In this document: in pieces, positions 19,105 to 56,400 of the stretch
Numbering within the stretch: position 1 is the first letter of the stretch
Layout: each line of letters begins with the position of its first letter
DNA from: Hygrophila difformis
Lineage: Eukaryota > Streptophyta > Magnoliopsida > Lamiales > Acanthaceae
Length of the DNA stretch: 64,000 nt
NCBI GenBank assembly: GCA_030278955.1
Contig: JAOANR010000006.1
Coordinates: 26,791,763-26,855,762, forward strand
Direction: 5' to 3'
Notes under the pieces: generated by a model
Told to the model about the DNA's origin: nothing
Databases searched by the model: none
The model's input: only the letters and a program-made list of their open reading frames with translations
Translations under genes and position numbers: made by a program

Positions 19105-19112
19105 CTTATATA
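19105..19112 (-). promoter_or_regulatory. TATA-like box of the A1 LTR
   Basis: TATATAAG on the minus strand, 60 bp downstream (in transcription direction) of dyad array B and 617 bp from the LTR start. Transcription start would be near 19080. The copy in the other LTR is at 31745-31752. Confidence 0.6.
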
Positions 19113-19171
19113 GGTGGAAGGCCTTAGGCCCATGGGCTCCCAGGCCATGAAATTTGAATTCGGAAGCTTGG

Positions 19172-27082: not shown

Positions 27083-27120
27083 CAGGGCTTTCCGGCCTTC
27101 GAAGACGACAGAAACGCCAT
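27083..27120 (-). CDS. Short first exon (38 nt) of the A1 accessory gene
   Basis: ATG at 27120 begins a short reading MAFLSSSKAGKP, ending in phase 2 at a near-consensus donor. The exon is followed in frame by the exon at 25579. It lies 150 bp downstream of a TATA box. The A2 element has an exon of the same length, phase and position (46146-46109) that also starts M-A and is rich in serine. Confidence 0.65.
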
Positions 27121-28212: not shown

Positions 28213-30745
28213 TGAAACTTTTGACAAATTTCCACCACGAGTATTTTTGAAAATAGATTAATGAAATAATCCCGGTTTAGATTTTATTTAATGAAAATCA
28301 ATTTGTGATGATGGAGTTGGGATTAAGGATATAATTATAGGTTGTCACGTTTTTATTTACTCGTGTTGAGAAACTGTGCCCCGAAAGTGCACGGAGTCAA
28401 AAATTGTAGTATTTATGGTAAGTACCGGATCGTTCACTGGAGGATGTGCGATAGAAGCAGGTCCCACGTCGTTTTATAAGATTTTTCCACTCGTATTACT
28501 CGATTCAATATTTGTGTTTGATTATCAACTACTTGACAGAATTTAAACTAAGATATGAAAGCAATTAAAATTATACTAAAAAGCAGATAAAATTATTCGA
28601 GAACGCAATTAAAATTATTCGAAGAAAGCGATAAAAATTATACTAATCTATCTATCATTAATTCTAGAAAGCAGATTTAAATTGTGACAAAAGGGACAGG
28701 AAGAAAAGAATAAAAATTGGACAAGATTCAGATGAAACACAATTAAACTTCCATTTTAATACACAGATCTTTGTTTGGGATAATCCTTTCAGTCAGCTAG
28801 CTCTAATGCTCCTATACTATGTTCCCTTTAACAGACAGGTACTTACAGTAGAGGTTTACATGCTCTTAAGAAGACAAATTCTAAGATACCACAGACGCAT
28901 AACTACCCTTGCAATGCACTGCTAAGGTATATTATTTATCTGTGATGGACAAGCAACACCTAACAAATCATTTATTCAGATGCCAAGTACTCCTATCATT
29001 CCCCCATGTCACACCTAAAGATTCTAATCAAGCCCTGAACTATTCCATAACTCCCATTCCTAGTAGCAGCTAGAAGTTCTCTCAATACATCCGAGTGACC
29101 TCTATAAAAGCATTTAAAAGAAAGCGGTAAAGAAAGCATGTAAAATCCTATCACTCGGAGGTTTTAAAAGCATCATACTGGTAGTAAATGAGAGCCACCA
29201 GTCTTAATGACCGGACACAGATCAAGAATTCCCGGACATCAGTAAACCGCTTGCGGTGTTTACCTACTCCCTGGGTGGTTATGACATACAAACTAATGAA
29301 ACAAACTAATAAATTAGTTTGTTCCGGATGCACTCACTCAAGACTCAAAAATAGGCTCTGGCAGAAGAGGACAACAGTTGAAAGAGTACTCAACCCTATC
29401 TTAGAAAATAACCAAGGCCCGCATGTTGTTCTTCTAGTATTATCTATCACACCTTATCTGAATCCAAGTGGACTCTGATTCAGTGCAATATTTAATATAA
29501 GATATCCAACATACAACAATTTTGAAAAATAATTGATGTTTGAAAATCATTCCCTAAACAGGTACTAAACTCTTAATTAAAACACAGATTCTTTCAGTCT
29601 AAACTAGACCTAATCGCTGACTCTGCTTCTAATTTCCCAAAATCAACCCCAGTCGGATGTGAATTAGTCATAACTGTGGAATTTATCCCTTACTCAGATC
29701 CGGATTTTATAAAGGATTTTTGTTGGAAATTTATTATGAGACATCTGATTTAAATCAAGACTCCTATGTCCAAGGGAAGGATCCCAAAATAATTATGACC
29801 ACATTATTTACATAATAGTATCATGCATAAATTTATAAGGGAGTGTAAAATTAAATTAACCCAAAATATAAGGCGGGTTTAGACAGAATGTGATGCACAG
29901 AGATGAAATAGCTGGGGATGAGAAGAATTTATTTTGGCTAAAAAGATGACAAGAATAATTAGGAGAATCTGGACTACAAACATCTGCTATTCGATTCCCA
30001 ATCATTCCAGGTGAAGTGGTTTTAGACAGCAGAAGACCCTAAATGACCGTGATCGCTATCATCAAGACTCCTACATCTGTGAAATGAGAGAAAAACCTAC
30101 ATATTTTCTCACTATAATACCAGTTAAACAGTCTTGATCGACACCATCTGATAATATTCAGTTTGAAATTCGGGTTTGAAAATAAAATAAAAAAATAAAA
30201 CTGTATTCAGACAGGGACTGGCTGAGTGGCTACTTCATTTCCCGGTAAGGGGACCGTTCGCCTGACCTCGTCAGTCACTATCCAAACCATGCAAAATAAC
30301 AAATAGTAATTAATACACAGACTACGGGCTACTTCATTTCCCGGTAAAGGGACCGTTCGCCAACATTATTCCATGATATTTTTCACTATTCATTTCATAC
30401 AACACAGGTAAAGACAAAATAAATAAAAGAAAATATTTTTGGATCACCTTGTATGAGAGACATTGGTTTCTCATGCAAGGGTATGGAAGTCATTCCATAA
30501 TTACTCTTTACGGTCTAAATAATCACTCATTCCATAATTAATTATTTACAGTTCGGATTATATACTTAGATCATCAGAGTTTAATTTTTGTAGAAAAATC
30601 TTTTAATGGAATATTGAACAAAGGTCTTTATATCAAATTAATCATGGGTTGAGGTCATTGGATTTCAACATCAAAATATTAATATAAAGGTTCAATTAAT
30701 TAAGTGAGAAAAATGGAGAAATGGAAATTTGGCAAAAATGCCAAT

Positions 30746-31100
30746 TACGACGCTAGGCAGATTTTACGACGCTATACTAGGATAGCGTCGTAGGGGTAGC
30801 GTCGTAGTGTTGAATTTTTGGAAGTTTGATAAAATTGGGGGGGTACGACGCTATACACTAAATTACGACGCTATCCTAGGATAACGTCGTGGGTGTAGCG
30901 TCGTAGGTGGGTTTTTGTGAGAAAGAAAGTTCTTGTGAGAAAGGAAGTATTTTGGGGTACTACGACCTAGACAAAAATTACGACGCTATCCTAGGATAGC
31001 GTCGTAGGACAAATTTTTCTTAGATCCGAAGCAACTACGACGTAAAACCTTCCCCTACGTCGTTAACCTAGGTTAGCATCGTAGGGCGGTGAGCATCGTT
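30746..31100 (-). repeat. A1 5' LTR dyad array A (copy)
   Basis: Copy of 18104-18460, with the CCTAGG-centred core near 30980-31007 again perfect and the others one or two changes away. Confidence 0.85.
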
Positions 31101-31811
31101 GCTACCGCAGAACATAAGAGTTGGTCGGGTACTGCACTCTATGCGATTGCAAACCCTATTTTCAAGTTTATGGCTCAAGAATGCAGGGTATGGCAAAATA
31201 GAAATGTAAAATAAGCTACAATGCATGAAAATAAGAGGAATAAGGAGCTAACACTGAGCATAATGAACCCCAAGACCCGAATGAGGGTTTCCAACCACAA
31301 ACCATGCATAAGAACCTAAAAATGAAGATAAAGATACAAAACCCACATGCAATGGAAAATAAAATAACCAAATGGCCGTTTAAACAAAAATAAAGCATAA
31401 AATCCATGAACCAATGTCCATTTCATGATTTGGGACTCTTTCTGTGATTAACTTCCCATTTGTAAGAAATATGGCTTGATGATACTCATGATTTGGGTAT
31501 TTCAAACCTTAACAAAAGTTTACAAAGCTGTTAAATAATGAAAACAGTGGCTATCTAGCTCTAAAACACTAAACACTTGCTAACCTAAGCTAGACAATAA
31601 CTAGAAACTAAGAACAATGCAAGAAAAATAAATAATACAAAAAAAAATCCTAACTAAACTAACTACCTACACACCTCTCAAGAACTCCAAGTTGTCTCCA
31701 AGTTTGTATGTTGTGAAGTGACTGATCCTAGGAGTCAACTTATCCTTATATAGGTGGGAAACCGTAGGCCCATGGGCCCCCAGGCCTTGAAATTTGAATT
31801 CTGAAGCTTGG

Positions 31812-32081
31812 TACGACGCTATGGCTTGTTACGACGTTAATGTTGCTACGGCGTTGAACATGTCTTGCGTCGTAGTCTTCCATCTCGAAGGCTCCTCCTG
31901 TTTCTAGATAAACAGCCTACGACGCTATCCTCCACTACGTCGCTATGCTTAAGTACGACGCTATCCTTGCTCAGCGTCGTACCCCTCTTCCTTCGAAGTT
32001 CTGCCTTGGTTTCTGCCTACGACGCTATACTTGGATACGACGCTATACATGCTTAGCATCGTAGTTGAGTCTAGCATCGTG
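31812..32081 (-). repeat. A1 5' LTR dyad array B (copy)
   Basis: Copy of 19172-19441; several half-sites here are intact where the left copy has TACGGCG or GACAC, and vice versa. Confidence 0.85.
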
Positions 32082-32373
32082 ATTTCCTGAAAAATGTCAA
32101 ATTTTTGTGGGTCTTCATTTCTTTTCCCATCTTTTTATTTCCTTTTTCTTTTCTTTTCTTTTTCTCATGTTTTTGGAATTTTCTAACATAAATGTGTAAT
32201 AAAATTACATATTTATGCATTTTTCATACCAGCTCAGTATTTTTACAATTATGCATAAATCAATCCAATTCAACTTCTTTCTAATTTATTATAAGACCGG
32301 AATACGATCAAATGCCCGTTTCAGACACGGAAATGGATTGAAGTAATGGACATTTCTGGCCATTATCAATAGA

Positions 32374-37706: not shown

Positions 37707-39826
37707 TGAAACTTTTGACAATTTCCGCACGAGTATTTTCTAAAATATATTAAGATTGTCACTTTTTATTACTCATGTGGGAAACTTTGATTTTGAATGG
37801 CGCCATGAAAATCTTGACAATGACGCCATGAAACTTTTGACAATTTCCACACAAGAGTATTTTCCAAAATATCAAGTTTGAATTTATTAAATGAAAAGAG
37901 TTATGATTTATGGAAGGGGTTTAAGGATATATTAAGGTTGTCACGTTTTTATACTCGTGTTAAGAAACTGTGGCCCGAAAGTGCACGGTGTCAAAAATTG
38001 CAGTAATTTATAGTAAGACCGGATCGTTCACTGGAGGATGTGCGATAGAAGCAGGGCCCACGTCGTTTACTAAGATTTTCCACTCGGTTACTCGTTTCAG
38101 GTTTTGCATTGGTTTCTAACAACTACTTGACATAATTTAAACTAGATTATGAAAGTAGTAAAAGTTACACTATAAAGCATAGTAAAATTATTCTAAAAAG
38201 CAATTAAATCTATTCTAAGAAAGCAATAAGATTATGCTAAGAAGGCGGATAAAATTATTCTATAAAAGCAGATTTTAGATGTGACAGAAGGGACAGGGAG
38301 AAAATAATAAAGATTGGACAAGATTCAGATGAAACACAATTAAACTTCCATTTTAATTACACAGATTTTTGGTTGGGATAATTCATCAGTTAGCTAACTC
38401 CCATGCTTTCTAACTATGTTCCCTTTAACAGACAGGTGCTTATAATCAGAATTTACATGCTCTTAAGACCTCAATTTCTAAGATACCACAGATTAATAAC
38501 TCCCCCTGCCGAGGTTATTTCTCCATGGTGGATAAGCAACACCTAACATATCATTAGTTGACATGCCAAGTACTCCTATCATCCCCCTTGTCACACCAAA
38601 TAGTCTAGATAAAATCCCGAACTAATCCACAACTCTTAAACCTTACAACCGGCGGCCAACCTCTAATTCTTCCGAGTGACCTCTATAAAAGCATTTAAAC
38701 GAAAGCGGTAAAGAAAGCAGTAAAGAAAGCATTTAAAAACCTATCACTCGGAAGCCTCAAAAGCTATCTCATTCCGTTAGCATAAAAGAGCTCCTGGTTT
38801 CGATGACCAGATGCAGATTTAGAACTTCCCAAATATCAGTAAGCCACAGGGCTTATAACATCCGGTTAGTTATGAGATACAGACTGAGTGGAACAGACCT
38901 GGAAAGATCTATTCCGAATGTACTCACTCAAGACTCAATGCTAGGCTTTGGCGGGAGAGGATAGTAGTTGAAAGAATACTCAACCCTACCTTAGAAATTA
39001 ACCAAGGCCTATGTGTTGTTCCTCCAGTATTATTTATCACATCTTATCTGAATCTAAGTGGACACTGATTTGATGCACTACTTAATAGAAGATTTCCAAC
39101 ACACAGTAATTTTGAGAAAACAATTGATATTTGAAAATCATTACCTACACAGGTACTAAACTCTCAATTAAAACACAGATCCTTTCAGTCTAGATGAGAC
39201 CTAATCGCTGACTCTGCTTCTAGTTTCCCAAAATCAATCCCCAGTAGAAATTGAATTAGTCATAACTGTGAAATTATCCCTTACTCAGATCCGGATTTTA
39301 TAAAGTGATTTTTGTGGAAATTTATTATGCAGCATCTGATTTAGATCAAAACTTCTATGTCCAAGGAGAAGGATCCCCAAAATATTATAGACCACAATAT
39401 CTACATAATAATATCATGCATACATGTATATGAGAAGTAAAATAAAATACCCCAAAATATATGGTGGGATTACACAGAATTTGATACACAAAGATGGATT
39501 AGCCTTGAGATAAGGAGAATCGACTAAAAGAGTGCCAGAAATAACTGGGGTTGTCTGGACTGCAAACATCTGCTATCCAGTTCCCAATTATTCCAGATGG
39601 AATGGTTTTTAGATAGTAAGAAACCCTTAATGTCAGTGATCGCTACCATCAAGAGTCCTACTATCCATGAGAGAGTAAAAACCCACATGTTTTTTCGCTA
39701 CAGTACGATTATAACAGTGTTGATCAACACTGTTTAACATTACTTATGGCTAGAAATTCAGGTTGAAATTAAGATAAAGAGAAGAAAACTGTATCTAATT
39801 AGGAATTGGCTGAGTGGCTAATCGTT

Positions 39827-39953
39827 ATCCCCGTGAAGGGACCTTTTTGCCGTAGCTTCCACCAATCACTAACCAGACCATGCAAAATAACGAGTAATAA
39901 TTAATACACAGAAGACGAGCTAAACGTTATCCCGGTGAAGGGACCTTTTTGCC
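39827..39953 (-). repeat. Duplicated LTR motif (A2 version)
   Basis: GCTAATCGTTATCCCCGTGA with AGGGACCTTTTTGCC at 39827-39852, and GCTAAACGTTATCCCGGTGA with the same tail at 39919-39953. It is the position equivalent of the A1 pair at 17587-17719. Confidence 0.7.
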
Positions 39954-40197
39954 AACATTGACCTATGATATCTCTTATTACCCGTTCATACACACAAGTA
40001 ATGAGAAAAGGTGAAATTAAAGGAATGTTTTTGGGTATTGTGTAAGTATTAATCACACAATGATATAGACATTAATGGGTTTAGGTGTGTAATAGATAAA
40101 ATTAAATGCAATGGGCCTAAGCCCAATACATCCATGCAACTTACACAACTCAGAAAGATAAAATATTTTTTGGAGTTTTAAAATAGAGAGGGGAGGT

Positions 40198-40769
40198 CAA
40201 TTCGGTCTACTGCAATGTAAACCGAATTGCCTATGCATAAGAAATGAAGTGTTATCTTACCCAATTAATCATAGTAAGGTTGGAAAATAACATCATCTAA
40301 TTCGGTTTGTCAAGCAATTCGGTCTATACCGAATTGGACAAACCGAATTGATGGGGTTATCCCCTTACTCAAATTTGGCTAAGGCATTTGCTTCAAAAGG
40401 AGTGTTTAATTCGATTTACCAGGATGATTCGGTATAGACCGAATTGGTAAACCAAATTGGTTTAACAAGGAAAATAAACTAAGGCATGAAGGGATGATAA
40501 TGCATACAATGAGGTTTCCAAACCAATTCGGTCTATGTGTGCAATTCGGTATAAACCGAATTGCATAGATCGAATTGCATGGGAACTTCATGAGGATGTG
40601 AACAAACAATATTTTATCATGCAATTCGGTCTTCATGGGCAATTCGTTTTAAACCGAATTGCCTTAGATCGAATTACATGACATTTTCTCATGAAGGAAA
40701 TAAACAAACATTTTGTGTCATGCACTTCAGTCTTCATGGGCAATTCGGTATAGACCGAATTGCATGGCA
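40198..40769 (-). repeat. A2 LTR dyad array A
   Basis: Six units built from AATTCGGT and ACCGAATT. Several are nested: an inner palindrome (such as AATTCGGTATAAACCGAATT) bracketed by outer half-sites whose adjoining spacers also pair. Examples: 40299-40311 (AATTCGGTTTGTC) with 40337-40349 (GACAAACCGAATT), perfect over 13 bp; 40525-40537 (AATTCGGTCTATG) with 40564-40576 (CATAGATCGAATT), 12 of 13; 40408-40421 with 40445-40458, 12 of 14. Confidence 0.9.
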
Positions 40770-41657
40770 TTTTCACATGTGTATATATATATTTTTTTGT
40801 TTACAAATATCACTGCGGTTTCTAAGTTGATGTGGTTTATGATAGATGGGATTGACCCCATCACTCATTTCACATCAATGTTATCTCGCGGCCATACTTG
40901 TAAATATTTTGTGGTTATCCATAATCATGCATGTTCAGTGGATAAAAGCATGGAGTAAAACCTAAAGCGACAAACAAATAATTCAAAGAGTAAATAACCT
41001 AAAACAACTATAATTCTAAGAACATCAAGCATAAAAGAATAAGAACACTTAAATTATCTAAGGCAACATAAACAAGAAATCTAAGCAAGGAAATTAAAAT
41101 AAAGCATGTAAACCTATTTCTAAGAAGCCTTAAATTAACTAAACACCTAAGAACACTTATTTGAGCTCTAAGGCATAAAAACACATCAAAAATCCACTTA
41201 ACATGCATTTATCAAGAATGAAAGCCAACTAGAAACATATTAAATGTAACCTAGTTGGAACAAACATTCATTCTACCATATTTATTGCTAAAGAAAGCAT
41301 TTAAAGAGTGTGAAACACATGAGCCAAAATCCATTTCTGGAAATTTTCTTTGCATTAAACACTTGAAAACAAAGTAAATGACCCAAAACCATCATTAGAT
41401 TGAAGGTTGGGTTCATTCTAACTACAAAGCATGTTAAAGATATGGAAAATGGCTACTCTAGGTGGTAGTAACAGCTTTACAAATTAACTAACATCAAAGC
41501 AGCAAAAACTAATCTAAAATGCATAAAAATAATCTAACTAATCTACCTACCTAACCCTTAAGGGGTGAAGAACTTGGTACCCCTTGTCCTCTCCAAGAAT
41601 TAGGGTTGAAACTGTATTCTATGTTCTGGCTTCTCCTTCAGTGTTGGTGAGAATTGA

Positions 41658-41665
41658 CTTTTATA
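41658..41665 (-). promoter_or_regulatory. TATA-like box of the A2 LTR
   Basis: TATAAAAG on the minus strand, about 110 bp downstream of dyad array B and 650 bp from the LTR start, close to the A1 distance (617 bp). Confidence 0.55.
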
Positions 41666-41777
41666 CTTGTTCTTCAAAACATTAGGCCCATCAGAGCCCA
41701 TTAGCAATGGCATGCTTTTTCCACGTGCTCCTCAGCTTCATCTGGATGTATCTTGAACTTAATTTGGTCTCCACATG

Positions 41778-42069
41778 CAATTCGGTACAGACCGAATTGG
41801 TGGACATCGAATTGCTTGAAGTCTTTCTTTCTTGATCTTTGGCTGGGATGTGGTCTTCAATGTCAATTCGGTATAGTGTAGACCGAATTGAGTATGTCGA
41901 ATTGCTCATGGTCTCCTGCTTGGCTTCCTTGTCTTGAATCAATTCGGTCTATGTGGTTAATTCGGTGTAAACCGAATTGCATAAACTGAATTGGGTATCT
42001 TGCTTCTCCTCTTAACACTTGGTCTATTGTTCTTCTTTATTCTTCAGCAATTCGGTGTAGACTGAGCCT
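41778..42069 (-). repeat. A2 LTR dyad array B, upstream of the TATA-like box
   Basis: Four units of the AATTCGGT/ACCGAATT family, for example 41780-41815 with paired spacers TCCAC...GTGGA, and 41940-41990. Same U3 position as array B in A1. Confidence 0.85.
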
Positions 42070-42317
42070 TTCTATACTTGGCCAAAAATTTCATTTTTGT
42101 GGGCTATTTTATTCTTTTGCCCATCTTTTTCTAACACAAATACAATTAAAATTGCATATTTTTGTGTTTTTCATTACCAGCTTATTATTTTTACAAACTC
42201 GCATTAATTTGTCGAATTCAACTGCTTTCTTATTAAAATAAGATGGGAATACGATCAAAATGTCCGTCTCAGACACGAAAATGGATTGGAAATAATGGAC
42301 AATTTTGGCCATTATCA

Positions 42318-44024
42318 ATATCCTCATATTTAATACTGATCGTCCCCGAGCAGTCAGAGTCAATGCTCCTAAGAGCAAGGACTCTGCACATTCAATCCAT
42401 TTGCGTGGCTTCAAAAATTTCATTCTTTTTATATTGGGATAAGATAATCAAAATTACAAGTATTAAACTCTCTTGATTGCAGTGTTTAATGAAATGATAT
42501 TTTTCACTTGAATAGGTGTACAAATCAATCATTATTGTTAATTTTTCTTGAATATATGTATAGAAAATCTCATTGGTTTAATTCTTGAATTCAAGCATGA
42601 CATGAACATTAATCAATCAAAGCAGAGCCTCACATATAGTAGAAACGGAAATTTCACCCACTCTCAAATTGGATTTTGGACAATACGCTCATAATCAAAT
42701 TCAATTAAATTCTCCCATAAGCTTGCAATCAGACCAACTCGCCACCTACTCATTTCCTCAAATCGAGATCCTGAGGTCTTATTAAGGGTTATAACGGGAC
42801 ATACGGTTGTAACATCGGTATGGAAGGGAATTATTGGGGTAAAAAGTGGCACGAATCCATTCCACCTTAACTTGGCATGTTTTTATTTAAAATCTATGAT
42901 CATCAATACTTTTTCTTTCTTTTGCTTTTCTTTTTTATTGCATGACATTAGACTATGTCTAATTTGCTTTGTCAATTGCAATTTATTTTTGTTGAATAGA
43001 TCTCAACATTTTTCTCATTTTCTTTTTTCTTTTCTTTTCTTCTTTCTTCTCTTTTTTTTTTTTGAATCGGTTTTTTTTAAATGCCGATTGATATTTTCTT
43101 TTTGATGATCATAAATTATAATGCCTTAGTACAATAGATTCGTGTACACTTGGGTTTGATTTTCTTGTTCTTTTTATAAGGTTAGGAAAATATAGTGGCT
43201 TCAAAGAAAAATTAGGCTTAAAGGCTCAAAGTGGTTAATCCTAAAGGGAAAATATTTTTGGGTTTGGATTTCAAACGAAGGCAAAAAATTTGGGTTTTTC
43301 TAAGTGCCTCGATCATATGCTCGATTTCGGGAATATAGCATGGTCTTGAATCGATCCCAATTGCAAGTTCTAGTTTCTTTTAATCAGATTGATTTTCACA
43401 CAATCAAAGAAATAATGAGTAAAAATGACTCGGCTCAGATCTCACATGGTATGGTTTGATCATGTCATAAATTTAGTCTTGAACTTAACCTTTGAAAAAT
43501 TCTTGCAATTTATTCAATCAAATTCTCAACATGAAAGTTTATTTTTTTTTCAAGTGATCATATCATTAGATTTTTATAGCTCAAAACCTCAAGAATTTAT
43601 ATCATGCATATTTTTAATTATTTTATCCCAATTTAATAGTTTGAAAATTTCATCCTTAGCCTAAATTCAACATGTGAATTTAGGTGACAAATTTATGCTT
43701 GTTTTATGCCGGTTATTTAATTGAAAGCAGTAAAAAAACACTGTGAACATGCAAGCATGTTACAGCTTTGTTTTTGGCATGGCAGTCACTTATTCATCTC
43801 GGACTACCACACATCTTTTTCAAAATATTTTGAGAATTCAAAGCGAAATTTTCTTTTGGAAAGCAATAAATACATCAATATATTAGTTACAGGAGATTGT
43901 TGTGTCCTCTGATCGAGTTTGCACAAATCAAAAATCAAAAGATCTCCTAATTGATGTTTAAAGTTTAGATTAGACAAAAATATAGTCAATACAGATCTAA
44001 TCCTCCCTCTGCATTCTTCTTCTA
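42318..44024 (-). other. A2 3' region downstream of the F-box frame
   Basis: No credible gene. Aligns with 19729-21364 of A1. It ends in ATTAAATATGAGGATAT before the 3' LTR on the minus strand. Confidence 0.65.
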
Positions 44025-46146
44025 TTACCCTTGAAAGAAGACTCTGCTCCAGTGAACGAAGTTTGTTAGACTGCAGGGTAAGCAATATTCGTAGTCGCCC
44101 AGTTCTCCTAGGTCCTCTTGTATCCTTGGACAGTTGACCCTAAGCTCTTGGTCACCAAACAAATCGGGGGTCTCCAAGCTCTCTATCAGCCATGAGAGAA
44201 CGTTGGTGCCCACATATTTCAGGACCAATTCGTTTGTTGCCATTTTGTCGATCATTGCTTGTTGGACCTGATCATTGTCCAGCTTGCTCAGCAGCATGAA
44301 TCCCCTTACAAAGATTGAAGCCTTGTGATTATCCTCTACCCCGGGTCTCAGCAACTCGCAGGCTCCTTCCTCATCCCCTGCTCCGAACGCCTGTAGAGCT
44401 GGGATGAGTTGGAGGTTAAAGTTCCCTGCCTCCTCACATGTACGGAGGAGTTCCTCCCTCTGTCCTTTGATCCCTTGGTCCTAGATTTTTATGATGGTGG
44501 TCTCTAGTTCGCATCTTTTGTAGACAATGGGAAGATTTCCTACAGCTTGGAGTTTCTTGCATGCTTTCTTAGCAGTGAATACCTTTTTCACGTCGTCCTC
44601 TCCTATACGGGAGAGGATTTCTCCTAAGAGTTCCATTGGTAGGTCTAGCAGTTCAGTTCTTTCTTGTTCCAGAATTGGGTCCGGAAGGATGATGCCTCTG
44701 CGAAGATAGGGAGTATTAAACCAAATTTAAAAATCAACATCCTCACATTTTGAGCCTTGCTCTAAATGTGAGTTAATTGGTTTCACTTGAATTTATTGAG
44801 GCAAAAGATAGGTACTAGGATACCAAGTTAGATTATCAAATCCAACATTATTGAACACACATAGTTACAAGGGAAAATATGAAAAATAAGAGTCTTGGAC
44901 CCTTATAATTTTTCTTAGACTAAAAAAAAATAGTCTAAGGATTTTTCAAATGGTCAAGAGACCAAAAGATGGAATTTTTATAGGCTATTGAGCCCATAAA
45001 AGAAAATTTTGATTTTTAATCACTATAAAAGTGATTTAAAACATGTGAAATGGGATGAGGAATATTAAGTGATAATAGAGAATGCACATGATGAATGATA
45101 GAATTAATAGCAAGCATGAGGCAATGGAATAAAAGCAGACGTACACACACAAACATAAAAAAAACTATTTTTTAAATTTTCTGGAAAGTGTTGACTTATT
45201 TATTTAGTAAAATTGGAGGTGTGAGTGGTCCCCCATTTGTCATTTTTGTTGGACAATGGGTGATGAAAAGTGAGTAAAATTGCTACACTTTGTTGATTCC
45301 CCACACATCCCAATATGTGTAAGTCAAACACTTAATAATACAAAATCCTACCAACTTTTTGTCTCTTTTATACATAAATGTCATGCCAGTTTTGATGTTT
45401 GAGAAACACATGTGAGGAAAAAATTTGGCATGGTTTTGTTTGTAATCCATGTTACCCATTTATTACAAACATCAACTTTCCATTTGAGTTTGTAGTGTGT
45501 AGTAAACTGGTTACTCACAAAACATTTATTACAAGATTCACATATTACAGTAGCATGCAAACAAATACACAACACAGTTCATTCATGCCAAATTTTTTCA
45601 AAAATTTTGCAAAGAAATCATGCTTCAATAAAGCAATTTCACTCAATCAATCATGCTTATTCAATCATCATTATCACACACATCAACACAGTAGTACAGG
45701 AGCAAAATGAAAAAGCTACCACTGTGTTCACCATCATCACAGTTATCAAATCATAATCACAGATAACAATATACACATACAGACAACAAAAATTTACCCA
45801 ATGGACAAAAACAAATTTTTGAGGGTTTTGGAACCCAAAATTTTCAAGAATACCAACATTCCTAAGACACAGTAAGCTCAAGCACTCAACAATGGAGATT
45901 CGAACAAGAGACAAGTTAAGCCCTAGGTTCGCACTACCCTGTTCTAGGCTCATCCGGTCATGCCCAACCTATTCCGACCATATTCCGACCATCATCAACA
46001 TGAAATCAGTCACCATTTCCTTCCCCACCCCCGAATTCACAAAACTCATGAAAATACAAAAACTGAAATCGCGAGAATGGAGTGCGAAATCGAAAACAGA
46101 GAACTTACCCCATGCTCCCACTCGGATTAGAGGATGAAGATGCCAT
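44025..46146 (-). pseudogene. F-box protein gene carried by A2 (two exons, one in-frame stop)
   Basis: Exon 1 is 38 nt: ATG at 46146, donor GG|GTAAGTTCT at 46108. The intron is 1.4 kb and the acceptor CTTCGCAG|AG is at 44698. The splice is phase 2 and stays in frame. Exon 2 (44697-44025) starts with an F-box: LPMELLGEILSRI, DDVKKVFTAKKACKKL and IVYKRCEL. After TAG at 44483-44481 the same frame continues with EELLRTCEEAGNF and GACELLRPGVEDNHKASIF, then RGFMLLSKLD, the Sel1-like pattern found downstream of the F-box in At2g35280-like plant proteins. About 235 residues in all, close to small plant F-box proteins. In that family the F-box binds SKP1 in an SCF ubiquitin ligase. Probably a captured host gene. 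The TAG may be a late transition. Confidence 0.72.
44742..44772 (-). repeat. Hairpin plus purine-rich tract (A2, near the intron acceptor)
   Basis: CTCACATTTTGAGC ... GCTCTAAATGTGAG: 14-bp arms with one mismatch, 45 nt from the acceptor, inside the intron. The A1 equivalent is 25655-25680. Confidence 0.75.
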
Positions 46147-46285
46147 TTAAAAAGCTTGGGAGTGGTTTGGATGGAATGAAGCTACTGGTTCGAGTTCTGG
46201 TTTCGTGAGGAAGACGAAGGGTCGCGAGAGGGAATGGGGGATTTTGTAAGCGTGGAAGTGAAAGTGAGAGGGAAGAGAGGGAAAG

Positions 46286-46296
46286 GGTATATAAAT
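46286..46296 (-). promoter_or_regulatory. Internal TATA-like box of the A2 F-box gene
   Basis: TATTTATATA on the minus strand (TATATAAATA on the plus strand, a better consensus there), about 140 bp upstream of the ATG and 20 bp from the dyad array. The direction is inferred from the gene; the box alone does not decide it. Confidence 0.5.
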
Positions 46297-46315
46297 AGGG
46301 GAGTGGGACTGGGAT

Positions 46316-46830
46316 CAATTCGGTCTAATGGAGACCGAACCATCAATTCGGTCTAGACCGAACCATCAATTCGGTCTAGACCGAATTGATGAAATCCCCA
46401 ATTGTTTGTGAGGGATTCGGTCTCCAGGCCAATTCGGTATAGACCGAATTGGTTTGTAGACCGAATATGGAGAAAAACACAAACAACTCACTTCTATTCG
46501 GTGTTTAAAATCAATTCGGTCTAGACCGAATTGACATAAGACCGAATTGGAGAGAGTATACCGAATTGGACACTTAGAAGAATAAAAGGTGCTTTTGTGA
46601 GGCAATTCGGTCTATTCAGGTAATTCGGTATTGACCGAATTGCCTTGTAGACCGAATTGGTCACTTGCAATAATTAAGAGGCTCAGAATAAAATAATGTC
46701 TTTTGTAAATCAATTCGATCTTTCAAGATCAATTCGATATAGACCGAATTGCTACTTAACATAATTAACACCGAATGTGTGCCTTGAGGGATCAATTCGG
46801 TCTAAACCGAATTGGCTTGGAGACCGAATT
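46316..46830 (-). repeat. A2 internal dyad array C, upstream of the F-box gene
   Basis: Around twenty half-sites of AATTCGGT/ACCGAATT, many as complete palindromes (AATTCGGTCTAGACCGAATT twice or more). Same motif as the A2 LTR arrays and same position as array C in A1. Confidence 0.9.
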
Positions 46831-47306: not shown

Positions 47307-48623
47307 TTATTGAGCATAGGCCGGCTCTGATATCATTTGAACTTCTTTTTCGGGATCGAACTGTCTGAGGTACTCCTTCAATCTCTGTCCGTTCACCACC
47401 ATCTCTCCCTTGTCAGTTCGAATCCTGACAGCTCCACTTCCAAACACGTGCACCACTTCGCATGGCCCTTCCCATCTGGATCTAAGCTTTCCGGGGAATA
47501 GCTTCAACCTAGTATTGAACAATAAGACATTTTGGCCAACATAGAAGTGTTTAGATTTAATACGATGATCATGCAACTTCTGGGTCCGCTCTTTGTAAAT
47601 CCTTGAGCTTTCATAAACTTGCGCACGTATTTCCTCAATTTCATTGAGGTCCAACTTGCGTTTGCCCTGAGCAACTCTTGGATCAAAATTAAGCGTTTTT
47701 ACGGCCCAGTAAGCTTTATGCTCTAGTTCTACGGGCAAGTGACAGGCTTTTCCGAAGACAAGCCTATAAGGGGACATCCCAATGGGAGTCTTAAATGCAG
47801 TGCGGTATGCCCATCGTGCATCATTGAGCTTACGTGACCAATCCTTACGGGTTATCCCCACAGTAGCCTCGAGTATATGTTTGATTTCGCGGTTTGATAC
47901 CTCGACTTGGCCACTAGTTTGGGGATGATAAGGCGTGCCTATCTTGTGGAGAATCCCAGTTTTGCTCATGAGAGTTGCAAAAGCTTTGTTAACAAAATGG
48001 GTTCCTCCATCAGATATGATTACGCTAGGTACACCAAATCTATTGAAAATGTTATTTTTCAGAAATTTGATGACTTGGTGACCATCATTGGTTGGCAGCG
48101 CAACCGCCTCAACCCACTTGGACACGTAGTCAATAGCTACCAAGATGTAATGATTCGAATCAGATGTCGAGAATGGTTCCATGAGGTCAATACCCCATAC
48201 ATCAAAAATCTCAAGAGTGAGAATTCCTTTTTGAGGCATTTCATCCCTCTTGGAGATATTTCCTAGTCTTTGGCATCTGTCGCAAGCCTTAACAAACGCC
48301 CTGCAATCCTCATAAATGGTAGGCCAATAGAAACCACACTCGAGCACTTTATGAGCTGTTCGAGTGGGGCCATGGTGACCTCCATATTCCGATTCATGGC
48401 ATTTTTTAGCGATTTGATAAGCCTCGTGCTCAGTTACACATCGTCGAATAATCGAATCTGCACAATGCTTGAAGAGATAAGGATCTTCCCAGAAGTAGTT
48501 GACTACTTCTCGGTTGAACCTTGCTTTATGGCCTTTGTGCTGGAATGGTGGGGTTATTCCACATGCTAAAAAGTTAGCAATGTCGGAAAACCATGGACAA
48601 GCTTGATCATGAAGGTACAACAA
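47307..48623 (-). pseudogene. A2 integrase
   Basis: About 438 residues. N-terminal zinc finger: H-x3-H in [11 protein letters not shown] and C-x2-C in ACDRCQ. Core catalytic triad: D in [11 protein letters not shown] in [10 protein letters not shown] in [10 protein letters not shown]. The C-terminal part ([16 protein letters not shown]) is the small barrel; no chromodomain, as is usual for Athila. The frame to the preceding RNase H is broken near 48650 by an indel (and a further shift near 48620), so the polyprotein is interrupted. It ends normally at 47307. Confidence 0.85.
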
Positions 48624-48656
48624 AAAGTTGCTCGTCCGGAAAATTTTCGTTAACGG

Positions 48657-50475
48657 CTATCTCATTTTTATCATTTCTATTCGAGACAAATGGTCAGCAG
48701 CACCATTGTCTTTGCCTTTTCTATCTTTTATTATGATATCGAATTCCTGCAACAGAAGTACCCACCTGATTAATCGAGGTTTGGCATCTTGTTTGCTGAA
48801 CAAGTATCTCAGTGCAGAGTGATCTGTGTACACTATGGTTTTCGTACCAATGAGGTACTGTCTGAATTTATCAAACGCGAAAACCACAGCATACATCTCT
48901 TTCTCCGTGGTGGTGTAGTTGATTTGAGCTTCACTCAGGGCGTGACTTGCGTAATAAATTACACAATGTTTCCCTTCCTTATGTTGCCCAAGAACTGCAC
49001 CTACGGCGAGATCACTTGCATCGCACATTACCTCGAAAGGTATTGACCAATCGGGTGGTTGCAGTATTGGAGCATAAATCAACATCTTTTTGAGCGTGTC
49101 AAAGGCTTGAACACACGCTTCATTTATTACGAAGGAATTTTCTTTACGAAGCAAGTTAGTGAGCGGCTTGGCAATTTTAGAAAAGTCTTTATAAACCTCC
49201 AGTAAAAACCGGCATGCCCTAAGAAACTCCTAACTGCTTTTATTGAATTGGGTAATGGAAGATTGGAGATGACTGAGACCTTGGCTCTATCGACTTCGAT
49301 GCCTGCGCGCGAGATGCGGTGACCCAACACAATTCCTTCGGTGACCATGAAATGGCACTTTTCCCAGTTTAGAACTAGGTTAGTGTCCTCGCATCTTTTT
49401 AAAATTTTTGCAAGATTAGTCAAACATCCATCAAAAGTATCTCCATATACAGAGAAGTCATCCATGAAAACTTCAATGCATTTTTCGATAAATTCGGAGA
49501 ATATAGACATCATGCATCGCTGAAAAGTTGCAGGCGCATTGCAAAGGCCAAAAGGCATGCGCCTGTACGCAAAAGTTCCATACGGGCAAGCGAAAGTAGT
49601 TTTATCATGATCTTCACTAGATATTACAATTTGATTATAGCCCGAATAACCATCCAAAAAACAGTAGTACTCCCTCCCGGCCAACCTCTCGAGCATTTGA
49701 TCAATGAACGGCAAGGGAAAGTGATCCTTCCGCGTAGCGGTATTGAGCTTCCGGTAGTCGATGCAAACTCTCCAACCTGTTACTGGCCTTGTCGCCACTT
49801 CCTCTCCTTGTTCGTTAGTAGTTATGCACATCCCCCACGCTTAGGTACTACCTGCACTGGGCTAACCCATTTGCTGTCAGATATAGGATAGATGATACCA
49901 GCATCTAAGAGCTTGATAACTTCTTTCCTTACCACTTCTTGCATGTGGGGGTTCAAACGCCTTTGGGGTTGCCTTGAGGGCTTGTACTCCTCTTCCATTA
50001 AAATTCTGTGCATGCAAACAGAGGGGCTTATTCCTTTTATATCATAAATGGTCCATCCAATTGCATGTACATATTTCTTGAGAATGTCTACCAGAGCTTT
50101 TTCTTGTTCTTGTGTCAGCTTAGCTGACACAATTACCGGTAACTTTTTAGGTTCAGCGAGAAAAACATACTTAAGATGATCCGGAAGTATTTTAAGTTCA
50201 AGCTCTGGCGGACATTCAACGGAAGGCAGTAATTTGCGAGAAACGGATGGGGGTGAAAGATCAGATTTACCTTCAGGACCCTGTTTTAGTACAGGGTCCA
50301 CTTCCTCGTCCATGGTGCTCTCCTCCTCCTCCGGAGTGAATTCAACACCGTCGAATTCTTCAAGGTCCCCAGTTATAGGGTCCTCGAAGTGCACGGCATT
50401 GCAGCTTGGCTCGGCACCAGCAGGCATCAGTACCTGCTTTGAAACTTTGTCCGACATAACAGTCATAGAGTCCAT
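48657..50475 (-). pseudogene. A2 reverse transcriptase and RNase H
   Basis: Three frames. 50475-49822 carries the RT entry (KPSRQPQRRLNPHMQEVVRK). 49831-49127 carries the RT core: RVCIDYRKLNTATRKDHFP, FLDGYSGYNQI, MPFGLCNAPATF and the catalytic FMDD, as in Athila. 49154-48657 carries RNase [43 protein letters not shown]. Single-base changes near 49830 and 49190 separate them. All catalytic residues seen are kept, so the damage is recent or partly due to sequence error. Confidence 0.88.
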
Positions 50476-50541
50476 GCTCTCGTCCTCACTCCTACCATCT
50501 ATTACATCAAATTTGGAACAAGTTTCCTCAGATGGAAACTT

Positions 50542-51600
50542 CTACAGACTGCCCATGTTGAAGTTCAGCTCTTCTTCTCCGACACGGAGCTTGATTTGGC
50601 TTGATCGAGCGTCTATCAGTGCACCACCTGTTGAGAGAAAAGGGCGGCCTAAGATCAGCGGCATTTCGTAGTCCTCCTCAATGTCAAGAATGATGAAGTC
50701 GACAGGGAAGAGAGTCCCTCCCGTCTTTACGATCACATCCTTCAGAATTCCGACTGGGTGGGTAATTAACCGGTCCGCCAGTTGCAGTTTCATTGTAAAT
50801 GGTTCAATTACTCCCAAATGAAGACGTTTTGCCATGGCGAGTGGCATGACGTTGATGCTGGATCCCAAATCGCATAACCCTTTTCCAACATTGATTTTTC
50901 CAATGTGGACTGGCAGTGTAATACAGCCTGGGTCTTCCTTCTTCTCCGGTAGCACTCTTTGGATTATGGCACTGCAGCTGCTGTTTAAAACCACCACTTC
51001 ATCCTGTTCAAATTTCCTTCTCCCTGAAATCATTTCTTTAAGAAATTTAGCATATACGGGCATTTCCGAAATCATTTCGACCAGGGGAATAGTGATCTCA
51101 ACAGCTTTCAATCTTTCTAAAAACTTTTTAAATTTTTCATCTTGTTCCTTATTTTTAAGACGTGCAGGGTATGGCACCTTTGGCATGTACTTATTATTAT
51201 CAATTTTTGGTGGTAAAGGTAAGGAAGTTGTACCTTCACCCGTACCCTTATCAGCTTTAACTGCAGCTTCAGTCTGCGAATTAGCTGCATCTGATTTGTC
51301 CTTCACCAGTTCAATACTTTGTTCTCCTTCAATCTTTTCCTTTTCCTTCTCTACCTCCACTGAATTCTTTTCCTTTACAGCCTTTTTCTTTTCGGACCCA
51401 ACATTCCCCTTCAGAGTCTTACCTCCCCGCAATGTGATTGCTTTACATTGCGAGTTGGTCTCAGTACTGCTCGGTAGTGTTCCTTTCCCCCTGTTCTGCA
51501 GTTCTTTCGCCAGCTGAGTCACTTGTGTTTCAACATTCTTAATCGATGACTGCAGTTGCTGGTTTATCTCCCTTTGATTGGAAATAAACTCGGTCATCAT
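50542..51600 (-). pseudogene. A2 gag C-terminal part and aspartic protease
   Basis: Lysine/glutamate-rich linker, then the Athila phrase CKAITLRGGKTL, the PPFPxRL-like PYPARLKNKEQDEKF, and the protease CDLGSSINVMPLAMAKRL with LQLADRLITHPVGILKDV and MPLILGRPFLST. The stop TAG at 50544-50542 is in the same frame as the following RT entry, so only this codon separates protease from RT. Confidence 0.85.
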
Positions 51601-51665
51601 GTTCTCCAGACAAGATGGTGGCTTTTGGTTGAACTGCTGGGTCTGATCAGGTTGGGCTTGGAAAT

Positions 51666-53309
51666 TCAGAAAGTTTTGGCCTTGGTTTTGGTTGGGCCTT
51701 TGTTGGATAAGTGGCTGGAAATTTTTATTGTGATTCTGGAAGTTCTGTACTCTCTGTTGAACGAACCCTTGATTCTGTATCCGGAAGTTTTGCTGTCAGT
51801 TTTGCTGGCAAACTGGGTAGGCTGATTTGGTTGAGATAACAAATGCGCATTGAGTGCATTGTTATTTGAGTAGGATAGGTTGGGGTGGCGGTTCTGGTAG
51901 TTTCCGACATAGTTACAGCTTTCGGTAGCTATCTGTTGGCATGTATCAGTTGGATGTGGTCCCTGACACAGCCCGCAAACAGCTTCCGATTGTTGTGGTT
52001 GTGCTTGGCTTGAAGAAGCTCCTGCCTGTACAGTACCTTTTCCTTTATCCTGACCCAGCCGAATCGCAACTACCTGTTCCTGTAATTTTTCAAAGTCTGT
52101 TTTACCCTCACTTACAACAAAAACTTTTCTAGAGGAATCAGCCTTCCTCTCATCGGTGTTCAGCACAGATCTGTGGATAGACATGGTCTCAATCTTTGCC
52201 CAGGCTTGGTCCATGGGCAAGTGGAGTAAGTGCCTTCCTCCAGCGGCATCTAGCATCATTCGCCATGAGTGGGTGAGTCCTCCGTAGAATTTTCGCAACT
52301 GTTCCCATGGTTGATATCCATGTTGGGGGCATCTCCTCAAAAGGTTGAAGAACCTCTCTTTGGCATCATAGAGTGATTCATCCGGTTTCATTTTGAATTC
52401 TCTGATTTTTGCTCGTTCTTCCTCCACTTTTGATTCAGGGAAGTACTTCAACAGAAAACTCCTCACCAGATCTGCCCATGTGCTTCTCGGATTGATAGGC
52501 AACGACTTGTACCAATCCCTGGCTCCACTAAACAATGAGAAAGGAAACAACATCAGTCTTATAGCATCAGGGGATACCCCCTGATTTTTTATCGTATCGC
52601 AGAGCTCCAGGAAAGTTTGAAGATGATCATGAGGGTCCTCCTGATTTGCACCGCAAAATTGATTGTTCTGCACCAAATTAATTAGTGCAGGTTTCAGTTC
52701 GAAGTTGCGTGCGGCAAATTGTGCTCTCCCGGGCCTGTTCAGATAAGGCTCCACAATAGGCTGCATGAAGTCAGCTGCTGCCTGCTGCTGCTGATTTCCT
52801 TGTTCTGCTTGATCTTGGTATTGCTGGTGGTAATTGGGATTTTGTTGGAACATGTTGTCTGGCTCTTGAGGGTTGTTCTGAAATTGATCTTGTTTGAAGG
52901 GTTGATTCTGGTATTGTTGGTTTGGTATATTTTGGTTTTGGTTTTGGTTATATTGGTTTAGAGGTGGTGGCGGTTGTTGGTGGAATTGCTGGTAATGTTG
53001 TTGTTCAAGATTAGGTAGATTCTCCTCCTCGTTGACACGATTTGGATGTTCTACCAGACCCCCATCAGCTCCATTGCCAGGGTTATTTGGTGGTTGATTA
53101 TGGATGGGTGGTTGGTTTATGGGTAAGATCGGGGGAATGTCCTGGTTTTCTGCCATGTCAGATAAATCATTGCTTGTGGTTTCAGGTGAGGTACGAGTCC
53201 GTGCTTCCCGTTCCTTTCGCAATCTTGCTTGTACTCTCAGCTGTCGAGCAGTCCTTTCTATTTCTAGATCGAACGGTAGCTCAGGCAATATATCCTTCCT
53301 CCTTTGCAT
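51666..53309 (-). CDS. A2 gag polyprotein
   Basis: About 547 residues starting MQRRKDILPELPFDLEIERT, the usual Athila gag opening. Then an N/Q/P-rich low-complexity linker (about residues 60-185), the capsid core (LMLFPFSLFSGARDWYKSLP, TWADLVRSFLLKYFPESK, RFFNLLRRCPQHGYQPW), and a knuckle of the Athila C-x2-C-x3-H-x4-C type (CGLCQGPHPTDTC). A frame change near 51770 separates it from the linker of the next frame. It lies 130 bp downstream of the primer site. Confidence 0.85.
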   Translation of the reverse strand: MQRRKDILPELPFDLEIERTARQLRVQARLRKEREARTRTSPETTSNDLSDMAENQDIPPILPINQPPIHNQPPNNPGNGADGGLVEHPNRVNEEENLPNLEQQHYQQFHQQPPPPLNQYNQNQNQNIPNQQYQNQPFKQDQFQNNPQEPDNMFQQNPNYHQQYQDQAEQGNQQQQAAADFMQPIVEPYLNRPGRAQFAARNFELKPALINLVQNNQFCGANQEDPHDHLQTFLELCDTIKNQGVSPDAIRLMLFPFSLFSGARDWYKSLPINPRSTWADLVRSFLLKYFPESKVEEERAKIREFKMKPDESLYDAKERFFNLLRRCPQHGYQPWEQLRKFYGGLTHSWRMMLDAAGGRHLLHLPMDQAWAKIETMSIHRSVLNTDERKADSSRKVFVVSEGKTDFEKLQEQVVAIRLGQDKGKGTVQAGASSSQAQPQQSEAVCGLCQGPHPTDTCQQIATESCNYVGNYQNRHPNLSYSNNNALNAHLLSQPNQPTQFASKTDSKTSGYRIKGSFNREYRTSRITIKISSHLSNKGPTKTKAKTF

Positions 53310-53455: not shown

Positions 53456-56400
53456 TGAAACTTTTGACAATTTCCGCACGAGTATTTTCTAAAATATATT
53501 AAGATTGTCACTTTTATTACTCATGTGGGAAACTTTGATTTCGAATGGCGCCATGAAAATCTTGACAATGACGCCATGAAACTTTTGACAATTTCCACAC
53601 AAGAATATTTTCCAAAATATCAAGTTTGAATTTATTAAATGAAAAGAGTTATGATTTATGGAAGGGGTTTAAGGATATATTAAGGTTGTCACGTTTTTAT
53701 TACTCGTGTTAAAAAACTGTGGTCCGAAAGCGCACGGTGTCAAAAATTGCAGTAATTTATAGTAAGACCGGATCGTTCACTGGAGGATGTGCGATAGAAG
53801 CAGGGCCCATGTCGTTTACTAAGATTTTCCACTCGGTTACTTGTTTCAGTTTTGCATTGGTTTCTAACAACTACTTGACATAATTTAAACTAGATTATGA
53901 AAGTAGTAAAAGTTACACTATAAAGCATAGTAAAATTATTCTAAAAAGCAATTAAATCTATTCTAAGAAAGTAATAAGATTATGCTAAGAAGGCGGATAA
54001 AATTATTCTACGAAAGCAGATTTAAAATGTGACAGAAGGGACAGGGAGAAAATAATAAAGATTGGACAAGATTCAGATGAAACACAATTAAACTTCCATT
54101 TTAATTACATAGATCTTTGGTTGGGATAATTCATCAGTTAGCTAACTCTCATGCTTTCTAACTATGTTCCCTTTAACAGACAGGTACTTATAATCAGAAT
54201 TTACATGCTCTTAAGACCTCAATTTCTAAGATACCACAGATTAATAACTCCCCCTGCCGAGGTATGTTATTTCTCCATGGTGGATAAGCAACACCTAAAA
54301 TATCATTAGTTGACATGCCAAGTACGCCTACCATCCCCCTTGTCACACCCAATAGTCCAGATAAAATCCCGAACTAATCCACAACTCTTAAACCTTACAA
54401 CCGGCGGCCAACCTCTAATTCTTCCGAGTGACCTCTATAAAAGCATTTAAATGAAAGCGGTAAAGAAAGCAGTAAAGAAAGCATTTAAAAACCTATCACT
54501 CGGAAGCCTCAAAAGCTATCTCATTCCGTTAGCATAAAAGAGCTCCTGGTTTCGATGACCAGATGCAGATTTAGAACTTCCCAAATATCAGTAAGCCAGA
54601 TAGCTTATAATATCCGGTTAATTATGAGATACAAACTGAGTGGAACAGACCTGGAAAGATCTATTCCGAATGTACTCACTCAAGACTCAATGCTAGGCTT
54701 TGGCGGGAGAGGATAGTAGTTGAAAGAATACTCAACCCTACCTTAGAAATTAACCAAGGCCTATGTGTCGTTCCTCCAGTATTATTTATCACATCTTATC
54801 TGAATCCATGTGGACACTGATTTGATGCACTACTTAATAGAAGATTTCCAACACACAGTAATTTTGAGAAAACAATTGATATTTGAAAATCATTCCCTAC
54901 ACAGGTACTAAACTCTCAATTAAAACACATATCATTTCAGTCTAGATGAGACCTAATCGCTGACTCTGCTTCTAGTTTCCCAAAATCAATCCCCAGTAGA
55001 AATTGAATTAGTCATAACTGTGAAATTATCCCTTACTCAGATCCGGACTTTATAAAGTGATTTTTGTGGAAATTTATTATGCAGCATCTGATTTAGATCA
55101 AGACTTCTTTGTCTAAGGAGAAGGATCCCCAAAATATTATAGACCACAATATCTACATAATAATATCATGCATACATGTATATGAGAAGTAAAATAAAAT
55201 ACCCCAAAATATATGGTGGGATTAGACAGAATTTGATATACAAAGATGGATTAGCCTTGAGATAAGGAGAATTGGCTAAAAGAGTGCCAGAAATAACTGG
55301 GGTTGTCTGGACTGCAAACATCTGCTATCCAGTTCCCAATTATTCCAGATTGAATGGTTTTTAGATAGTAAGAAACCCTTAATGTCAGTGATCGCTACCA
55401 TCAAGAGTCCTACTATCCATGAGAGAGTAAAAACCCACATGTTTTCTTGCTACAGTACGATTATAACAGTGTTGATCGACACTGTTTAACATTACTTATG
55501 GCTCGAAATTCAGGTTGAAATTAAGATAAAGAGAAGAAAACTGTATCTAATTAGGAATTGGCTGAGTGGCTAATCGTTATCCCCGTGAAGGGACCTTTTT
55601 GCCGTAGCTTCCACCAATCACTAACCAGACCATGCAAAATAACGAGTAATAATTAATACACAGAAGACGAGCTAATCGTTATCCTGGTGAAGGGACCTTT
55701 TTGCCAACATTGATCTGTGATATCTCTTATTACTCGTTCATACACACAAGTAATGAGAAAAGGTGAAATTAAAAGAATGTTTTTGGTATTGTGTAAGTAT
55801 TAATCACACAATGATATAGACACTAATGGGTTGAGGTGTGTAATGGATAAAATTAAATGCAATGGGCCTAAGTCCAATACATCCATGCAACTTACACAAT
55901 TCAGGAAAATAAAATAGTTTTTTGAGTTTTAAAATAGAGAGGGGAGGTCAATTCGGTCTACTGCAATGTAAACTGAATTGTCTATGCATGAGAAATGAAG
56001 TGCTATCTTACCCAATTAATCATAGTAAGGTTGGGAAATAACATCATCTAATTCGGTTTGTCAAGCAATTCGGTATAGACCGAATTGGACAAACCGAATT
56101 GATGGGGTTATCCCCTTACTCAAATTTGGCTAAGGCATTTGCTTCAAAAGGAGTGTTTAATTTTATTTACCAGGATGATTCGGTATAGACCGAATTGGTA
56201 AACCAAATTGGTTTAACAAGGAAAATAAACTAAGGCATGAAGGGATGATAATGCATACAATGAGGTTTCCAAACCAATTTGGTCTATGTGCGCAATCTGG
56301 TATAAACCGAATTGCATAGATCGAATTGCATGGGAACTTCATGAGGATATGAACAAACAACATTTTTATCATGCAATTCGGTCTTCATGGGCAATTCGAT

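Follow-up and report, generated by a model that had tools for sequence, protein, structure and literature searches.

Element-specific inverted-repeat arrays at matching positions in two related LTR retrotransposons of Hygrophila difformis

INTRODUCTION

Sireviruses, a group of Ty1/copia long terminal repeat (LTR) retrotransposons, carry repeated motifs (RM boxes) that are palindromic, element specific, and located upstream of the LTR TATA box (PMC2829016, BMC Genomics 2010). In env-bearing Sireviruses, extra RM copies precede env (77 of the 79 linker copies), and among the Ty1/copia elements compared, the RM motif is reported in Sireviruses only. The authors suggested a regulatory role for this array layout as an untested idea and left the role of the boxes open, and it was still a hypothesis in a paper from 2023 (PMC10760457). 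Here, we describe a similar layout in two related LTR retrotransposons, A1 and A2, both on the minus strand of a 64-kb stretch of the Hygrophila difformis genome (contig JAOANR010000006.1, positions 26,791,763 to 26,855,762; the whole stretch is referred to as the window here). Each element carries its own inverted-repeat motif in three arrays, one of which precedes an accessory gene.

An earlier note, made from the sequence alone, had likened this pattern to VANDAL transposons and their motif-specific VANC proteins. The likeness stands insofar as VANDALs also repeat a short motif in the noncoding DNA of one family and a different one in a relative (PMC5735166, PMC10398659); however, the closest published pattern that we found is that of the Sirevirus RM boxes (PMC2829016). 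A binding protein is known for VANDALs, which are DNA transposons, whereas A1 and A2 are LTR retrotransposons with inverted, nested repeats, and A2, with its LTRs, gag, and pol, is not a Mutator-like, VANC-encoding DNA transposon. VANC gave no match in the Pfam scans, in which VANC sequences themselves were not compared.

Additional open reading frames (ORFs) between pol and the 3′ LTR have been described in Grande (gene23), Retand (TRP28 ORFs), and Athila and Bagy2 (env-like) (PMC7264820, PMC11963269), and the accessory gene of A1 and A2 occupies the same place. The extra gene of Grande is reported to have its own promoter, and tandem arrays are present there in about half of the surveyed Retand elements (PMC7264820, PMC11963269). 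The Grande and Retand ORFs are antisense, whereas the gene of A1 and A2 is in sense orientation, has a predicted short exon 1, and shares its array motif with the LTR.

RESULTS

A single motif per element, confined to arrays at three positions

The arrays of A2 are composed of the half-site pair AATTCGGT/ACCGAATT, which has 54 exact matches in the window, compared with a mean of 2.21 (largest, 8) in 100 shuffles. All 51 copies that belong to A2 are within its arrays (distribution in Table 1), with none in the remaining 17,026 bases of the element, and the three found elsewhere (at 1697, 2412, and 57322) are about the number expected by chance. The motif pair of A1 is ACGACGCT/AGCGTCGT; its 35 copies are again restricted to the arrays, the remaining 15,121 bases having none. 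Not one of the nine array copies contains the motif of the other element, even if one mismatch is allowed, so that the half-sites differ between the elements and no mixing occurs within either of them, as the earlier note had claimed.

A scan of the window for 8-mers found at least twice per orientation and at least five times in total within 600 bp flagged the arrays of A1 and A2 and nothing else, and the best count of the same scan in ten Markov-simulated windows was 0 in nine cases and 4 in one. Given the simulated windows and the confinement of the motifs, we dropped the notion that the layout is mere noise; the observation itself is real and unusually clean. Dyad scans of sequence collections returned 1 and 7 stretches with 2 to 4 motif copies each, which we judged to be chance matches because none of them contained an array, and an integrase scan of viral contigs yielded no relative among 12 pattern matches.

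An inverted repeat at 1696-2420 has 74-nucleotide (nt) arms that are 77% complementary and carry AATTCGGT, and it looks like a small inverted-repeat element. We considered it as a relative of A2 and dropped it, given the near-chance number of matches outside the arrays and a comparison of its interior by eye.

Arrays A, B, and C of A2 lie within the LTR, in its U3 (unique 3′) region, and internally, respectively, and those of A1 take the same three places. Array B lies at a similar depth inside the LTR start in the two elements (261 bp in A2 and 287 bp in A1) and is upstream of a minus-strand TATA-like match. The exact half-site nearest to this match is 61 bp away in A1 and 114 bp away in A2, where a one-mismatch half-site at 41761 is closer, at 96 bp. 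The half-site of array C nearest to a TATA-like match is closer still, at 20 and 24 bp in A2, where two matches overlap, and at 21 bp in A1; for comparison, the minus strand of the window has one TATA-like match per 889 bp. Array A is downstream of the LTR TATA-like match, by 0.9 to 1.5 kb in A2 and 0.65 to 1.0 kb in A1, and is thus not promoter proximal, unlike B and C.

The sequences around the arrays are related between the elements, again in line with the earlier note. The two LTRs share ∼77% identity over 2.2 kb on the U5 (unique 5′) side and 81% over the 190 bp with which U3 starts; the internal spacers on the 3′ side align at ∼80%. Aligning flanks bracket array A only loosely. On one side of array B, 19451-19728 aligns with 42084-42317, and on the other, more weakly, 18965-19030 aligns with 41486-41550 (E value of 7e-4). 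Array C is flanked by the post-integrase spacer and by a promoter/exon-1 stretch of weaker similarity (score of 70, with 62 as the highest score among 300 shuffles), followed by an intron with short aligned pieces.

TABLE 1 Coordinates of the two elements, their arrays, and their predicted coding parts in the window
Feature	Position	Strand	Remarks
A2 array A	40199..40761		within LTR; 14 exact half-sites, mostly nested >><< units
A2 array B	41779..42056		U3; 8 exact half-sites; upstream of TATA-like match at 41665 (minus)
A2 array C	46317..46830		upstream of accessory gene; 18 exact half-sites; overlapping TATA-like matches at 46297 and 46293
A2 array A, 5′ LTR copy	55950..56528		11 exact half-sites
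A1 array A	18105..18458		ACGACGCT/AGCGTCGT; 5′ LTR copy 30747-31099
A1 array B	19173..19441		upstream of TATA-like match at 19112; 5′ LTR copy 31813-32080
A1 array C	27300..27654		upstream of accessory gene; TATA-like match at 27279
A1 whole element	15583-32368	minus	LTR pair ∼4.15 kb each, 96.0% identity
A1 3′ LTR	15583..19728	minus	96.0% identity to 28213-32368
A1 5′ LTR	28213..32368	minus	pairs with 15583..19728
A2 whole element	37707 to beyond 56776	minus	
A2 3′ LTR	37707..42317	minus	37707-41011 pairs with 53456-56776 at 96.6%; plus strand begins TGAAACTTTTGA at 37707 and ends GGCCATTATCA at 42317
A2 5′ LTR, partial	53456..56776	minus	broken at ∼56776 by another LTR element beginning TGTAACACCC
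A2 gag-pol region	47307..53309	minus	gag 53309-51666; reverse transcriptase (RT) 49831-49127; RNase H 49154-48657; integrase 48623-47307
A2 accessory gene, predicted coding exon 1	46109..46146	minus	38 nt, MASSSSNPSGSM; donor GGG|GTAAGT; start codon and splicing predicted
A2 accessory gene, predicted exon 2	44025..44697	minus	F-box-like, then TPR_27-like; one in-frame stop near 44481
A1 accessory gene, predicted coding exon 1	27083..27120	minus	38 nt, MAFLSSSKAGKP; start codon and splicing predicted
A1 accessory gene, predicted exon 2	21365..25579	minus	long; stop and frame changes; C-terminal piece Transposase_32-like

Nested half-sites: possible protein binding or RNA pairing

Within the arrays, the half-sites are mostly ordered outer-inner-inner-outer and face inwards. 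In A2, 14 of 17 convergent neighbors form an inner dyad of 12 bp from start to start (the others, 17, 17, and 22 bp), compared with an inner dyad of 18 bp in 8 of 11 neighbors in A1 (the others, 13, 13, and 19 bp), or in 9 of 11 after one replacement by hand. The two elements thus follow a common plan with a different pitch, so that the match in position, spacing, and nesting claimed by the earlier note stands for position and nesting and only in part for spacing.

We then asked whether changes in one half-site are compensated in its partner, using 40 hand-chosen pairs (14 inner and 9 outer in A2, 11 inner and 6 outer in A1), with the LTR arrays taken from the 3′ LTR only. The A2 pairs 40199/40221, 41865/41882, and 46317/46334 were left out for their other gaps, as were half-sites whose partner was not clear, and in A1 the overlapping pair 18416/18434 took the place of 18396/18415. 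None of the 32 off-consensus positions was compensated, favoring a word kept in double-stranded DNA over a kept pairing; pairing alone as the keeper of the motif is therefore disfavored.

Based on these sequence features, we propose that the arrays are likely binding sites for a dimeric, probably host-encoded protein that would co-activate the LTR promoter and the accessory promoter, a reading to which we give about an even chance of being right. It builds on the observed position, nesting, and near-fixed inner spacing of the half-sites, on the confinement of the motifs, on the lack of compensating changes, and on the CpG richness and common spacers described below.

Several observations weigh against this proposal. 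The sample, for this as for every other reading considered here, is two elements from one window, and the place of array A downstream of the LTR TATA-like match is not predicted by a simple upstream activator. The TATA-like stretch at array C of A2 reads at least equally well on the plus strand, as TATATAAATA, so that the direction there is not certain. The test for compensated changes has no computed chance level and speaks only against a strong pairing constraint. Finally, in units from the same hand-chosen list, the outer flanks of A2 match within a unit in 36/54 cases versus 24.5 between units (P ∼0.001, uncorrected for four tests), as expected of hairpins or inverted duplication, and the inner flanks of A1 also lean toward within-unit matching (P = 0.016); the other two of the four tests, on the A1 outer and A2 inner flanks, were negative.

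The reach of the A2 outer arms past the half-site within a unit is also a point for the idea that transcripts of the arrays form strong hairpins, which would serve as structural signals or supply small RNAs for silencing by the host. Minus-strand RNA folding of three of the six distinct arrays gave structures far more stable than those of shuffles (z-scores of −15.4 for A2 array C, −12.9 for A1 array C, and −14.0 for A2 array A), although such scores cannot separate cause from by-product because any inverted repeat folds well. Maize small RNAs are reported to concentrate on Sirevirus palindromes (PMC10760457, PMC5311732). Nevertheless, the lack of compensated changes, the near-fixed spacing, the uniform word, and the location of arrays B and C upstream of TATA-like matches make a primary role of hairpins quite improbable in our opinion; RNA hairpins from the arrays may arise as a by-product or fill a second role.

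The accessory genes differ in their second exon

Array C precedes an accessory gene whose predicted exon 1 has the same design in A1 and A2, namely 38 nt followed by GTAAGTT, a phase-2 intron (1,411 nt in A2 and 1,503 nt in A1), and a frame-keeping CAG acceptor. The DNA similarity between the elements stops 27 bp (44724, A2) and 55 bp (25634, A1) ahead of predicted exon 2 and restarts past the stop codons, at 43879 in A2 and 21266 in A1. Between these limits, the second exons show no DNA match to each other, nor is there a protein match between their pieces at an E value of 1.

The earlier note had placed array C upstream of an F-box gene. The array is indeed upstream of the accessory gene; the F-box match of the A2 product is weak, however, at 17.5 bits for the piece and 15.1 bits with X at the stop, versus a Pfam cutoff of 20.5, and its TPR_27 match is below the cutoff as well. 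A search with the A2 product found no protein homologue at an E value of 0.01 (152 candidates). In A1, the C-terminal piece matches Transposase_32 with an E value of 9e-9, yet below Pfam's own cutoff, and the N-terminal piece has no Pfam match at an E value of 1 and no homologue at 0.001 (3,365 candidates). Pfam scans recognized no DNA-binding domain in either product, and AlphaFold models built from single sequences were unusable (mean predicted local distance difference test scores [pLDDT] of 37.0 and 34.5). A parasite-encoded plant F-box-like protein as in A2 has a counterpart in the silencing suppressor P0 of poleroviruses (PMC6593998, PMC6784205), an analogy only.

These genes are central to the possibility that, as with VANC, the accessory gene provides a factor that reads only the arrays of its own element and protects or activates it, motif and exon having been replaced as a pair. 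Motif and exon 2 do differ between elements that have kept the LTR flanks, the 3′ flank, and the design of exon 1; A1 retains its arrays and a (broken) accessory gene in spite of having no gag-pol; and in VANDAL elements, turnover of the motif is reported to go with a matching protein (PMC5735166). The lack of a recognized DNA-binding domain next to weak F-box and TPR_27 matches, the matchless N-terminal piece of A1, and the unusable fold models speak against it, and a single pair of elements cannot show a correlation. We regard such self-recognition as unlikely.

The sequence ATCCTCACATTT (on the minus strand, AAATGTGAGGAT) occurs exactly at 19731, 25649, 28045, 44739, and 47191, places that follow integrase, precede exon 2, or mark the A1 3′ LTR junction, and the A2 3′ LTR junction has a variant of it, so that polypurine-tract-like stretches bracket the replaced exon. 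It resembles the extra polypurine tract of Athila4 and Calypso (PMC2829016), and it is a guess of ours that it may have aided the exon replacement.

CpG content and possible decay and copying of array units

The ratio of observed to expected CpG is 0.78 to 1.61 in the arrays versus 0.19 to 0.62 in nine of ten other parts of the elements, the exception being the A2 LTR start (42061-42320, 5 CpGs) with 0.87. Since insertion, 10 of 184 half-site positions have changed in A1, compared with 115 of 3,495 in the rest of the LTR (P = 0.14), and 8 of 168 compared with 68 of 2,599 in A2 (P = 0.14). Pooling the elements gives weak evidence for a faster change of half-sites (P = 0.038), which neither element shows significantly alone, and of the 18 changes in half-sites, 15 fall in CpG context. 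These data fit, without proving it, an upkeep of the arrays in active ancestors and methylation-driven decay in the present copies.

The arrays of one element also have spacers in common beyond what shuffles produce, for example, a 57-bp unit in A2 arrays A and B. Comparisons of array against array gave P values below 0.02 in 9 of 12 cases (300 shuffles each), 0.03 in one, and ∼0.09 in two, with several reverse-complement matches among them expected from the palindromes themselves. The sameness of the motif within an element is thus probably due in part to common descent of the units, not to independent convergence on a binding site. Common spacers, together with GGTTCGGT...GAATTGAT units at 46317-46390 that look recently duplicated, are also what one would see if short inverted units had simply multiplied without function, via slippage or template switching. 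Such neutral expansion leaves unexplained that the arrays occupy the same three positions in A1 and A2, that array C lies 20 to 24 bp from TATA-like matches, and that two unrelated motifs are each confined to arrays of one layout, and we consider it very unlikely.

Structure of the elements and their surroundings

The domain order of A2 pol (RT, RNase H, integrase) is that of Ty3/gypsy, and a sense gene lies between integrase and the 3′ LTR, as in the Athila lineage; a protease-like match at 51600-50542 is below the cutoff. Past the LTR end, the minus strand reads TGGCGCCATTGCCGGGGAGG in A2 and TGGCGCCGTTGCCGGGGAGG in A1, candidate primer-binding sites, that of Athila being assigned to tRNA-Asp. 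The Athila label itself comes from the earlier note and is presumed here.

A1 is flanked by a 5-bp direct repeat, ATAGA, on either outer side and has no gag-pol, the sequence past its primer-binding site running straight into an A2-type post-integrase spacer (27828-28098 versus 46975-47245, 76%). It is a nonautonomous derivative with target-site repeats. The gap (window 27828-28261) extends almost exactly from the primer-binding region to the post-integrase spacer, sparing the arrays and the broken accessory gene.

The 5′ LTR copy of A2 array B is outside the window, since another LTR element breaks that LTR at ∼56,776. The LTR of this other element (56776-59534) reads TGTAACACCC...GGTGTTACA, then TGGTATCAGAGC, and is followed by a gag-protease ORF at 60708-62357. 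A further repeat pair of ∼1.1 kb (3035-4169 and 7821-8952, 96.6% identity; window 3035-8952) surrounds ORFs 5683-6432 and 6473-7936, of which the latter has no Pfam match at an E value of 0.01.

DISCUSSION

The layout found in A1 and A2 is not new in kind, since the Sirevirus RM boxes precede it. The two patterns share dyad symmetry, copy number, element-specific words, a place before the LTR TATA box, CpG richness, and extra copies upstream of the gene in env position, which corresponds to array C (PMC2829016). The Sirevirus definition of at least eight palindromic copies per element upstream of the LTR TATA box compares with 51 exact half-sites in A2 and 35 in A1. The A2 dyad also has the CGG-CCG core of the RM boxes (CGGT....ACCG), whereas the A1 motif (ACGACGCT...AGCGTCGT) is without it, as is the published Tnd-1 motif (PMC2829016). 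Nevertheless, A1 and A2 are of another superfamily, as indicated by the Ty3/gypsy order of A2 pol, and their arrays are RM-like without the elements being members of that group. They differ further in that their units are nested pairs (four half-sites), that they have a third array, located downstream of the LTR TATA-like match, and that the second exon of the downstream gene is wholly different between close relatives.

What is new, accordingly, is the layout in a Ty3/gypsy, Athila-like lineage, the nested units of four half-sites, and the fact that motif and accessory exon both differ between two sister elements. Our literature search, which covered titles and the starts of abstracts and left most subscription papers outside, found no report of such arrays in Athila. 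That a Ty3/gypsy lineage has this layout as well suggests an independent origin under shared selection.

If the arrays are binding sites for a host protein, as we propose, a dimer would bind the nested half-sites and jointly activate the promoters of the LTR and of the accessory gene. One lineage may then have changed its regulator, after which copying of units would have spread the new motif through all arrays; the shared spacers suggest that such copying between arrays helps to explain the uniformity of the motif inside one element. More speculatively, the F-box-like product of A2 would likely target a host protein for removal, perhaps one involved in silencing. A bolder variant sees the elements as carrying exchangeable cassettes for self-recognition, with a private DNA word at every promoter and a matching accessory exon that are exchanged as a set, with the result that sister families in one genome no longer activate or protect one another, while the F-box protein of A2 clears a host silencer; we think this rather unlikely.

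The matched positions and unrelated words of the two sisters amount to a natural swap experiment on how elements change their activation. Co-segregation of accessory exon and motif across the genome would show that LTR retrotransposons change a private regulatory code; without it, the arrays would record how elements change host regulators.

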